NCBI GenBank assembly: GCA_027887005.1
Contig: JAPCJI010000001.1
Span: forward strand, 1 to 64,000
Length of the DNA: 64,000 nt
DNA from: Nitrososphaerota archaeon
Lineage (GTDB): Archaea > Thermoproteota > Nitrososphaeria > Nitrososphaerales > Gagatemarchaeaceae
Reading direction: 5' to 3'
The notes beneath the pieces were generated by a model, which saw only the letters and a list, made by a program, of their open reading frames with translations, was not told the DNA's origin and ran no database searches. Positions 11,117-21,492 of the stretch are shown one piece after another (position 1 is the stretch's first letter; each line of letters starts with the position of its first letter). The position numbers and the translations under genes were made by a program.

Positions 11117-13252
11117 ATGAAACGTTTGGTCTTAGACTACGGTTTCCTTGCCCTCGGCGTCTCCGTCGTAGCGCTGTTATACGCCCTCGCCCTCTGGGCC
11201 TACCTCAGGCGTCAGAGCAAGGGCACTCAGAAGATGACCGAAATCTCCGACGCAGTAAGACAGGGCGCAGTCGCGTTCCTTGGGAAGGAGTACAAGGTGA
11301 TCTCGCCCATTGCCATTGTGATAACCATCCTGATCTTCGGGCTAATTGACCTGCCCAACGGGACCGGGGGTGCAACGGCGGCTGGGTTCGCCCTCGGGGC
11401 GACACTGTCAGCAGTCGCCGGCTACGTCGGCATGGCTGTAACCGTCAGAACGAGCTCGCGGGCGGCCGAAGCTGCGAAGCAGGGCCTTGGAAGCGCCCTG
11501 GCCCTGGCATTCAAGGGCGGTGGAGTCATGGGAATGACCGTCGTCGGGCTAGACTTGCTCGGTCTGTCCGTGTACTATCTCGCTTTCTCCAGCGCAATCC
11601 TCAAGACGCCGGTAATCCTGGCGGGATTGGGATTCGGCGCCTCTCTTATCGCCATGTTCATGAGGGTGTCAGGAGGAATCTACACCAAGGCCGCGGACGT
11701 TGGTGCCGACCTTGTTGGAAAGGTCGAGGCGGGCATCCCAGAAGACGACCCTCGTAACCCTGCAGTGATAGCGGACAACGTGGGCGACAATGTGGGAGAC
11801 TGCGCTGGAATGGGGGCAGACGTCTACGAGTCGTACGTGGTCACGGCCATAGCTGTGATGATACTGGGCGCTCTGCTGTCCGCGGGAGGGGCGCTGACCC
11901 TCTTGGTGTACCCCCTGCTGCTCGGGGCATCAGGCATCGTCGGAGCGATAGTCGCGAGCTTCTATGTGAGGAAAACTGTAAGGTCGAACCCGCTCAGAGT
12001 GCTGAACATCACCTTGCTGATCGCGGCAGCCATCACTGTGGTCTTGGATTACTTCCTTGGCCAGGCCCTCTTCGGGGGTTCGTCCCTTTCTAACTATCTG
12101 CTCGCGAGTGCCATCGTCGGGGTTGCGGTGGTCGTGGCAATTGAGAATGTCGCGAACTACTTCACTTCTTACAACTACTCGCCAGTGCGAGAGATCGCAG
12201 AATCAAGTAAGACGGGAGCGGCCACCAACTTCCTTTCAGGGTTCTCGAACGGGCTTTCGAGCACCGCCCCTTCTGCGGTCGTTCTGGTCTTGGCGATAAT
12301 CGTGTCCTACTTCCTGGGGTACGCCGGGTCAGGAGGGAATCAGCTGACCGGGGTCTACAGCACTGCAGTCGCTACGATGTCGATGCTCTCCCTGACCGGG
12401 GTTATCATGTCAATTGACTCGTTCGGCCCCATCACCGACAACGCCAACGGCATTGTTGAGATGGCCGGGCTGGAGTCCAGCGTCAGGACGGTGACCGACG
12501 AACTCGACGCGGTCGGAAACACGACCAAGGCCACGACCAAGGCCTTCGCAGTGACTTCTGCCGCGCTCGCGGCCGTCGCGATCTTCGAGGCGTTCCAGAA
12601 CGAGGTCAGCAACATAATCAGGAACGGTGGCTCGGCACTTGCAAGCAGGTACTCCTCGCACCTAGTAAACGGCCAGCTGAACTTCAGCCTGTCGGACCCC
12701 TACGTAGTCATTGGGCTACTGATCGGAGGCCTTCTCCCGTTCTACTTCTCGAGCTTCCTGATCAAAGCGGTGGGAAGAACTGCCTACACCATCGTGAACG
12801 AGGTCAGACGGCAGTTCAAGGAAATACCCGGCATTATGGAGGGGACCGCCAAGCCTGACTACGCAAAGTGCGTCGGCATATGCACCAGCGCGGCAATAAA
12901 GGAGCTTGCGAAGCCAGGGGCCCTGGCCGTCGCGACTCCCCTCGTAGTCGGCCTCGTGCTTGGACCGCTAGCTCTCGGCGGCCTCCTGATCGGCACTGTG
13001 GTCTCGGGAGTCTTCCTCGCGTTCACCATGACCAACGGCGGAGCTGCCTGGGACAACGCAAAGAAGTATATCGAAACAGGCCAACTGGGGGGCAAGGGCT
13101 CAGACGCCCACAAGGCCGCAGTGATGGGGGACACGGTGGGGGACCCCTTCAAGGACACCGCCGGACCGGCGATCAACTCCTTGATCAAGGTCGTGAACAC
13201 GATTTCGATAGTTTTCGTCTCCGCGATAGTATTGTATGCGCTCTTCGTGTGA
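11117..13252 (+). CDS. hppA: K+-independent H+-translocating membrane pyrophosphatase
   Basis: A protein of 711 residues with about 16 membrane segments. The catalytic signature DVGADLVGKVEAGIPEDDPRNPAVIADNVGDNVGD is intact around 195-230, as is the second aspartate-rich site DPFKDTAGPAIN near the C-terminus. The diagnostic motif reads GNTTKATTK: Lys and Thr at the two positions that distinguish K+-independent from K+-dependent enzymes (which have Ala and Gly/Ala). It couples PPi hydrolysis to proton export. A strong TTATAAAA box (11093-11100) ends only 16 nt before the ATG, closer than usual. Confidence 0.95.
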   Translation: MKRLVLDYGFLALGVSVVALLYALALWAYLRRQSKGTQKMTEISDAVRQGAVAFLGKEYKVISPIAIVITILIFGLIDLPNGTGGATAAGFALGATLSAVAGYVGMAVTVRTSSRAAEAAKQGLGSALALAFKGGGVMGMTVVGLDLLGLSVYYLAFSSAILKTPVILAGLGFGASLIAMFMRVSGGIYTKAADVGADLVGKVEAGIPEDDPRNPAVIADNVGDNVGDCAGMGADVYESYVVTAIAVMILGALLSAGGALTLLVYPLLLGASGIVGAIVASFYVRKTVRSNPLRVLNITLLIAAAITVVLDYFLGQALFGGSSLSNYLLASAIVGVAVVVAIENVANYFTSYNYSPVREIAESSKTGAATNFLSGFSNGLSSTAPSAVVLVLAIIVSYFLGYAGSGGNQLTGVYSTAVATMSMLSLTGVIMSIDSFGPITDNANGIVEMAGLESSVRTVTDELDAVGNTTKATTKAFAVTSAALAAVAIFEAFQNEVSNIIRNGGSALASRYSSHLVNGQLNFSLSDPYVVIGLLIGGLLPFYFSSFLIKAVGRTAYTIVNEVRRQFKEIPGIMEGTAKPDYAKCVGICTSAAIKELAKPGALAVATPLVVGLVLGPLALGGLLIGTVVSGVFLAFTMTNGGAAWDNAKKYIETGQLGGKGSDAHKAAVMGDTVGDPFKDTAGPAINSLIKVVNTISIVFVSAIVLYALFV

Positions 13253-13281
13253 ACTTTTACTCTAATGAGGTGGGGGTGGGA

Positions 13282-13313
13282 GACCCGGCTGCCGGGCTGC
13301 GTGCCCGGCGGCA
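13282..13313 (-). other. Noncanonical tRNA-Cys intron in the T-loop (position 59/60)
   Basis: A 32-nt insertion between G59 and T60. It forms a bulge-helix-bulge: outer helix GTGGG/CCCAC, central helix TCCG/CGGG (four pairs), three-nt bulges AGT and TCT, and an inner hairpin GCCGGGC/GCCCGGC with loop ACGCA. Cutting after the second base of each bulge yields exactly a seven-base T-loop. Confidence 0.85.
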
Positions 13314-13335
13314 CTCGGACCCACGTGAATGCGCT

Positions 13336-13350
13336 CACTGACGGGTTCCA
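13336..13350 (-). other. Canonical tRNA-Cys intron (position 37/38)
   Basis: A 15-nt insertion after G37. The flanking CTGC and TCAG form a central helix with three good pairs; the 3' bulge is TGA. This is a relaxed bulge-helix-bulge. Removal restores the seven-base loop CTGCAGA. Confidence 0.8.
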
Positions 13351-13504
13351 CTGCAGGCGCACGCGTAACCGCTCCGCCACCCCACCGCAATCGGGCCTCG
13401 AAGGTCTGAACTAATTATGCGTTCCAGAGTCGCCGAAAACCACGACCAATCGGCGAACGTCGTTTCCATAAAATCGTCCAACTTTCCTTCAGAAGTCCCA
13501 AAGC

Positions 13505-20034: not shown

Positions 20035-20088
20035 TTCCATCTCCCGTTCCTTTTATTTTCCATCTTGTCACAGGGTAGGTGCTAGCAT

Positions 20089-21492
20089 TTGCTCAGATTG
20101 TACAACAGCATGGGTCGGACGGTGCAGCCCTTCAGACCGATCAGGGATGGCGAGGTCCGGATGTACACCTGCGGTCCCACCGTCTGGAACTACGCCCACA
20201 TCGGGAACTTCAGGACCTACGCCTTCGAGGATCTGCTGAGGAGGTTCCTGCTCTTCAAGGGCTTCAGGGTGACCCAGGTGATGAACATCACCGACGTCGA
20301 AGACAACATCATCAAGGGGATCAAGCTCTCCGGCAAACCCCTGGGCGCGCTGACGTCATTCTACACAACCGCGTTCATGGAGGACCTGTCAGCCCTCGGG
20401 ATCCAGAAAGCCGAGGTCTATCCCAGAGCCACCGAGCACATCAAGGAAATGGTCGCCCTGGTCCTACGACTCCTCGCGAAGGGCGACGCCTACAGGGCTC
20501 CCGACGGGTCCGTGTACTTCGACGTCTCCAAGTTCAAGGAATACGGCGCCCTCTCCGGCGTAAAGCCTGGCGCAGGGAAGGCGGCAGGAAGGGTGGCCCA
20601 GGACCACTACGAGGAGAAGATGGAGGCCGCCGACTTCGCCCTCTGGAAGGCCTGGGACGCGGACGACGGCGAGGTATTCTGGGAGACCGAGCTAGGCAAA
20701 GGACGGCCCGGCTGGCACATCGAATGCTCGGCCATGTCGATGAAGTACCTGGGTGACACCTTCGACATCCACACCGGCGGGCTTGACAACAAGTTCCCCC
20801 ACCACGAGAACGAGATAGCACAGTCGGAGGCCGCGACCGGGAAGAAGTTCGTCAACTACTGGCTCCACTCGGCCTTCCTGACGGTTGGTGGAGAGGCGAT
20901 GCACAAGTCGGTGGGGAACGTCGTCTATCTCCGCGACCTGATGAAGAAGGGCTGGGACCCGCTGACCGTCCGTCTATTCCTGCTCTCCTCGAGGTACAGG
21001 GACCCGGTCGACCTTACCGACAAGGCCCTCAAGCAGTCCCGGGCCCAGCGGGAACGCCTTCAGGATTTCATCGATCGGCTCAAGCGGGTCAAAGGAGGGC
21101 CCAGGGCGAAGGGGGACCTGGCCGCTGGTCTTCTCTCGAGATTTGAAGGAGCGATGGACGACGACCTGAACGCGCCTCAGGCGCTGGCCGTGCTGTTCAC
21201 CTTCGTCAAGAGCGTCAACGGGAAGATCGACTCTTCCAGCCTAGGCAGGAGTGGAGCGTCGGAAATACTGGCCGCCCTTGAACGAGTCAACTCGGTCCTA
21301 GGGGTCATGAAGTTCGAGGGGGAGGGTGAGCTGCCCCCGGAGCTTTCCAACCTCCTCGACCAGAGGAACGAAGCAAAGAAGCGGAAGGACTTCGCAGAGG
21401 CGGACAGGCTGAGGGAGGCCCTGCTGGCAAATGGGATCCTCCTGGAGGACACGCCCTCGGGGACGCGGTGGAAGCGGGCGAAAAGTGGTTAA
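20089..21492 (+). CDS. cysS: Cysteinyl-tRNA synthetase
   Basis: A class I synthetase of 467 residues, normal length. HIGH-type motif AHIGNFRTY lies near 35-43; zinc ligands are the Cys of YTCGPTVW, the Cys of HIECSAMS and the His-Glu of HHENE. The KMSKS loop reads AMHKSVGN, keeping the second Lys-Ser but not the first Lys. It charges the split tRNA-Cys found at 13.3 kb. The TTG start follows a T-rich stretch (about 20050-20060) that may act as terminator of the previous gene or as promoter. Confidence 0.95.

Follow-up and report, generated by a model that had tools for sequence, protein, structure and literature searches.

Gene anatomy and identity

Can a tRNA gene that is interrupted twice, the second time within the T-loop, be functional? 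This question is raised by a short region of the window (the whole 64,000-nucleotide stretch analysed) between two plus-strand genes, both named from a reading of their translations: a membrane pyrophosphatase gene, whose end is at position 13252, and a gene resembling that of cytochrome oxidase subunit II, which begins at approximately 13518. The initial annotation placed here a tRNA-Cys(GCA) with a 15-nt intron at 37/38 and another intron, with a complete bulge-helix-bulge (BHB), at 59/60. This interpretation was upheld by every test; the coordinates 13268–13386 are exact, and the strand, originally left unstated, is minus (Table 1). With high confidence, we interpret the locus as a functional tRNA-Cys(GCA) gene with two archaeal BHB introns, belonging to a soil thaumarchaeon from the former group 1.1c, now Gagatemarchaeaceae (PMC10640624).

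Table 1. Elements of the twice-interrupted tRNA-Cys(GCA) gene, running from 13386 to 13268 of the window, and the cysteinyl-tRNA synthetase gene
Feature	Position	Strand	Description	Remarks
TATA-like promoter box	13412–13420	-	26–34 nt before the 5' end of the tRNA	GCATAATTA
Exon 1	13351–13386	-	Positions 1–37: acceptor 5' strand, D-arm, anticodon GCA, G37	GGTGGGGTGGCGGAGCGGTTACGCGTGCGCCTGCAG; conserved in 27 family members
Intron 1	13336–13350	-	15 nt, canonical 37/38, relaxed BHB	TGGAACCCGTCAGTG
Exon 2	13314–13335	-	Positions 38–59: anticodon stem 3' strand, variable loop, T-stem 5' strand, T-loop UCCGAG	AGCGCATTCACGTGGGTCCGAG
Intron 2	13282–13313	-	32 nt, T-loop 59/60, strict BHB, strong inner hairpin	TGCCGCCGGGCACGCAGCCCGGCAGCCGGGTC
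Exon 3	13269–13281	-	U60, T-stem 3' strand, acceptor 3' strand	TCCCACCCCCACC
Discriminator U73	13268	-	CCA not encoded	U73 in every homologue read
Cysteinyl-tRNA synthetase	20086–21490	+	Likely charging enzyme	7 kb from tRNA-Cys

Removal of both introns yields a standard 72-nt tRNA, in which all cloverleaf stems are intact. Cysteine identity, initially deduced from U73 and the anticodon, stands: both identity marks are present, the discriminator is shared by the homologues, and ARAGORN recognises the doubly spliced 72-mer as tRNA-Cys(gca). TGC codons occur in genes of the window. The promoter box is conserved: most of the 27 tRNA-Cys genes of the family have the core ATAATTA or TAATTA at about -32, and the rest have looser variants. 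A second, intronless tRNA-Cys gene, whose possible existence had been pointed out in the initial annotation, was looked for, and no second tRNA-Cys gene of any kind was detected in the genome, a 26-contig assembly that is 96% complete, the incompleteness of a MAG restricting claims of absence and leaving a small chance of another copy with different interruptions.

Splice motifs

When the whole precursor is simply folded, no cloverleaf results (z = -2.1), the minimum-energy fold pairing across exons and introns; hence, the splice motif was tested directly. Pairs of introns of 11–60 nt meeting loose BHB rules were enumerated blindly within the gene. Sixteen of 509 admissible two-intron splices leave a tRNA accepted by ARAGORN, and the best BHB score belongs to the combination of the 15-nt intron at 37/38 and the 32-nt intron at 59/60, yielding Cys(gca). 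Thus, a search permitting two introns, as originally proposed, ranks the claimed pair first of 509. The blind scan with one intron yields no tRNA at this locus, and hence two introns are needed.

The 59/60 intron, initially described as having a complete BHB and a strong inner hairpin, contains all of these elements. Its central helix, UCCG/CGGG, is formed by four pairs out of four, the two bulges (AG|U and UC|U) are 3 nt each, the outer helix is the 5-bp T-stem, and the inner helix consists of nine pairs with one mismatch. When the intron's own sequence was shuffled, 0.02% of the trials matched its score (p = 0.0002), and moving the register by 1–3 nt destroyed the motif. The claimed register is the best-scoring one in 13 of 13 distinct genes tested, with an outer helix of 5 bp and three to four central pairs of four. 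Position 55 covaries with its partner in the intron, forming C55–G in most genes and U55–A in genome G180. The motif of the 37/38 intron is weaker and relaxed, with three of four central pairs and almost no inner helix. The 3' part of this intron (CCGTCAGTG) is strongly conserved genus-wide, more than the relaxed motif seems to require, and its 5' part is variable.

Thermofilum pendens and Cyanidioschyzon merolae have permuted tRNA genes whose exons are joined at the same position, 59/60, via a BHB (PMC3218864), and the coincidence with the Thermofilum junction might suggest a permuted or split tRNA instead of a cis-spliced one. In contrast to the permuted genes, the halves here stand in the normal order, the 5' half followed by the 3' half and contiguous over 119 nt, the splice motif is closed in cis, and the intron would be removed in cis; this order excludes permutation or splitting, whose probability we consider vanishingly small.

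A group I intron was rejected as well: it requires a catalytic core of approximately 200 nt or more, whereas the introns are 15 and 32 nt long, and Rfam yielded no group I hit anywhere in the window.

The T-loop intron in related genomes

The comparison covered 40 relatives, a public genome scan, and 46 family genomes; the group falls among Nitrososphaerales/Thaumarchaeota MAGs, one of which is Ca. Gagatemarchaeum stordalenia. Of the 21 tRNA-Cys genes found in genus g1, 13 contain a 59/60 intron of 20–33 nt, and 8 are without it; 10 further g1 genomes, mostly incomplete, gave no tRNA-Cys match. A 38-nt version is present in G180, a member of another genus (g21). Thus, the comparison across relatives that had been suggested at the outset reveals introns at 59/60 in 13 of 21 g1 genes and in G180. 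The intron is absent from G057, G095, G114, G140, and G169. The 37/38 intron was observed in all g1 homologues read and is absent from G057, G114, and G140. When 300 genomes of the order were scanned for the pattern, tRNA-Cys T-loop introns turned up only in g1; this is a lower bound, since the scan missed G180, whose acceptor differs.

The 59/60 intron sequences are widely divergent among relatives. The uninterrupted T-loops of intron-free relatives are what splicing at 59/60 predicts, i.e., 7-mers TCCGA(A/G)T in G001, G003, G011, G104, G107, and G114. The patchy distribution across the genus would also fit a small mobile element or repeat that stays unspliced, an enlarged T-arm being tolerated by the cell. 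This explanation is extremely improbable, as the genome contains no other copy of the intron within three mismatches, the insert is always located at 59/60 together with the BHB pairing, and a T-loop left unspliced would be unable to adopt the standard elbow. The T-loop insert belongs to a known type of archaeal tRNA intron and is present in some close relatives but absent from others.

Indeed, noncanonical introns, including those in the T-arm, and multi-intron tRNAs have been described in Crenarchaeota and Caldiarchaeum, and noncanonical introns also in Thaumarchaeota (PMC3293823, PMC8450103). The tRNA-Cys gene resembles the noncanonical BHB introns of Thermoproteales, Ca. Caldiarchaeum subterraneum (T-arm), and Thaumarchaeota in that the introns are short, several occur in one tRNA, and a heteromeric endonuclease is encoded in the genome (PMC3293823, PMC8450103, PMC4090602). 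Unlike these cases, it comes with intron-plus and intron-minus relatives in one genus. In the literature consulted, we found no published description of such introns in group 1.1c or in tRNA-Cys. A single tRNA with several introns, one of them in the T-arm, is also known from C. merolae, whose tRNA-Ile(UAU) is interrupted in the D-, anticodon, and T-arms (PMC9602550); that organism is a eukaryotic red alga, and the tRNA and the enzyme are different. Close relatives within the genus offer the same gene both with the T-loop intron and without it, a compact natural series that should be useful for studies of archaeal tRNA intron gain and loss.

Gain and loss of the intron

The state of the T-loop intron was mapped onto a tree of one gene, RpoB, from which G130 was left out because of its abnormal branch. 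The mapping requires six changes vs. a mean of 9.2 for shuffled states, with 25 of 1000 shuffles being as low or lower. G107, lacking the T-loop intron, groups with G004 (bootstrap 97) and next to the genome under study, G000 (93), both of which are intron-bearing; its loop TCCGAGT is identical to the predicted mature loop of G004 and G000. Three other genomes without the T-loop intron, G001, G003, and G011, are nested among intron bearers, support around G011 being weaker (72). All four of these T-intron-free g1 genes retain the 37/38 intron.

The simplest reading of the tree is precise losses of the 3'-proximal intron; repeated parallel gains at 59/60 are a possible alternative. A more specific scenario, which we regard as speculative and rather unlikely, is that the T-loop intron was precisely lost several times (in G011, G107, G001, and G003) with the 37/38 intron kept, which would fit a 3'-biased gene correction templated by a partly spliced or partly copied precursor RNA, and that C55, earlier than or independent of the intron, may have helped the intron to become established through a stronger splice helix. 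If true, the 3'-biased correction would make a route of archaeal tRNA intron loss testable.

The T-loop of tRNA-Cys departs from the general tRNA feature U54 U55 C56 in having C at position 55 (UCC), U55 being near-universal in tRNAs (PMC7912444). C55 is common to tRNA-Cys of most of the genus and of the intronless G114; on the tree, it requires two changes, a number as low as this was observed in none of 1000 shuffles, and it is independent of the intron. It is no argument against the tRNA-Cys identity, because position 55 varies among homologous tRNA-Cys genes. Among the other tRNAs of two genomes, about one in ten also has C55, in the context TCCRAAT, at loci L029, L035, L044, and L052 of the genome under study and L163, L176, and L182 of G004. 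A Pus10-like gene is present despite C55.

Processing machinery and the proposed pathway

The genome encodes two paralogues of the splicing endonuclease EndA, a catalytic and a structural one. The first has its best alignment to the archaeal tRNA-splicing endonuclease chain 3p1z_B (E = 2e-41), which we take to be the Aeropyrum catalytic subunit. It retains Tyr, His, and Lys, and one of its lysines aligns with residue 44, i.e., Aeropyrum K44, presumably the lysine of the crenarchaea-specific loop. In the second paralogue, the fold is kept and His is missing. Heteromeric splicing endonucleases have been associated with noncanonical introns (PMC4090602, PMC4033280), and the genome is predicted to encode an enzyme able to use such BHB motifs. 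RtcB is encoded as well, and a second CysRS-like gene, in addition to the one listed in Table 1, was observed in the same genome (G000:C15:17439-18308).

Based on these genes and motifs, we propose the following pathway. The tRNA-Cys gene would be transcribed from the TATA-type promoter. In the precursor, the T-stem would serve as the outer helix, and U54-C55-C56-G57 would pair with CGGG near the 3' end of the intron, exposing the bulges AG|U and UC|U. The heteromeric endonuclease, composed of the catalytic and the structural subunits, would cut at 37/38 and 59/60, and the exons would be joined by an RNA ligase, presumably RtcB. Removal of the intron would restore the 7-nt T-loop UCCGAGU and hence the usual fold, and the mature tRNA would then be charged by CysRS.

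Detectability and annotation of interrupted tRNA genes

The unspliced gene yielded no tRNA call at this locus in ARAGORN, run with and without introns, and the locus was missed by the Rfam model RF00005 both at the gathering cut-off and at E up to 10. When only the T-loop intron was removed and introns were allowed, ARAGORN misread the gene as tRNA-Ser. Intronless homologues pass the Rfam cut-off, whereas G107 and G104, containing only the 37/38 intron, fall below it, and ARAGORN frequently assigns relatives with the 37/38 intron alone to Ser, Leu, or Gly instead. Thus, the T-loop intron suffices to make the gene invisible but is not required for this. The initial claim that this intron hides the gene agrees with the ARAGORN and Rfam results, but the effect cannot be ascribed to the T-loop intron alone, as the 37/38 intron already causes misses and misreadings in relatives.

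The related suggestion that tRNA-Cys may be reported missing from such genomes applies to simpler tools, as tRNAscan-SE 2.0 by default performs an iterative search for noncanonical introns and has a model trained on Thaumarchaeota (PMC8450103). The latter program was used in the study of Gagatemarchaeaceae, the main text of which does not mention introns (PMC10640624). For the closed relative G004, Rfam gives just 25 tRNA matches above its cut-off and 38 at E up to 10, none of which is the tRNA-Cys of this genome. The practical consequence is a warning for annotation, as standard searches undercount tRNAs in these genomes.

Invisibility to generic finders is also what might be expected of a decayed tRNA-Cys pseudogene with a chance hairpin, the working tRNA-Cys being encoded elsewhere. 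We consider this highly improbable, given the intact cloverleaf stems, the conserved promoter box, and the lack of any other detected tRNA-Cys copy. Moreover, 13 members of the genus keep the interrupted arrangement, and the splice motif is maintained in them even though the intron sequence is not conserved. The interpretation as a functional, twice-interrupted gene provides a complete and checkable account of a tRNA-Cys gene of group 1.1c Thaumarchaeota that is missed by generic tools.

Other tRNA loci of the same genome (L049, L055, L082, and others) look interrupted at noncanonical positions. The one-intron blind scan, whose low specificity at these loci makes its matches leads only, points, e.g., to tRNA-Phe(GAA) with a 14-nt insert in the D-loop and tRNA-Gly(GCC) with a 22-nt insert. 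The genome seems to be rich in noncanonical tRNA introns.
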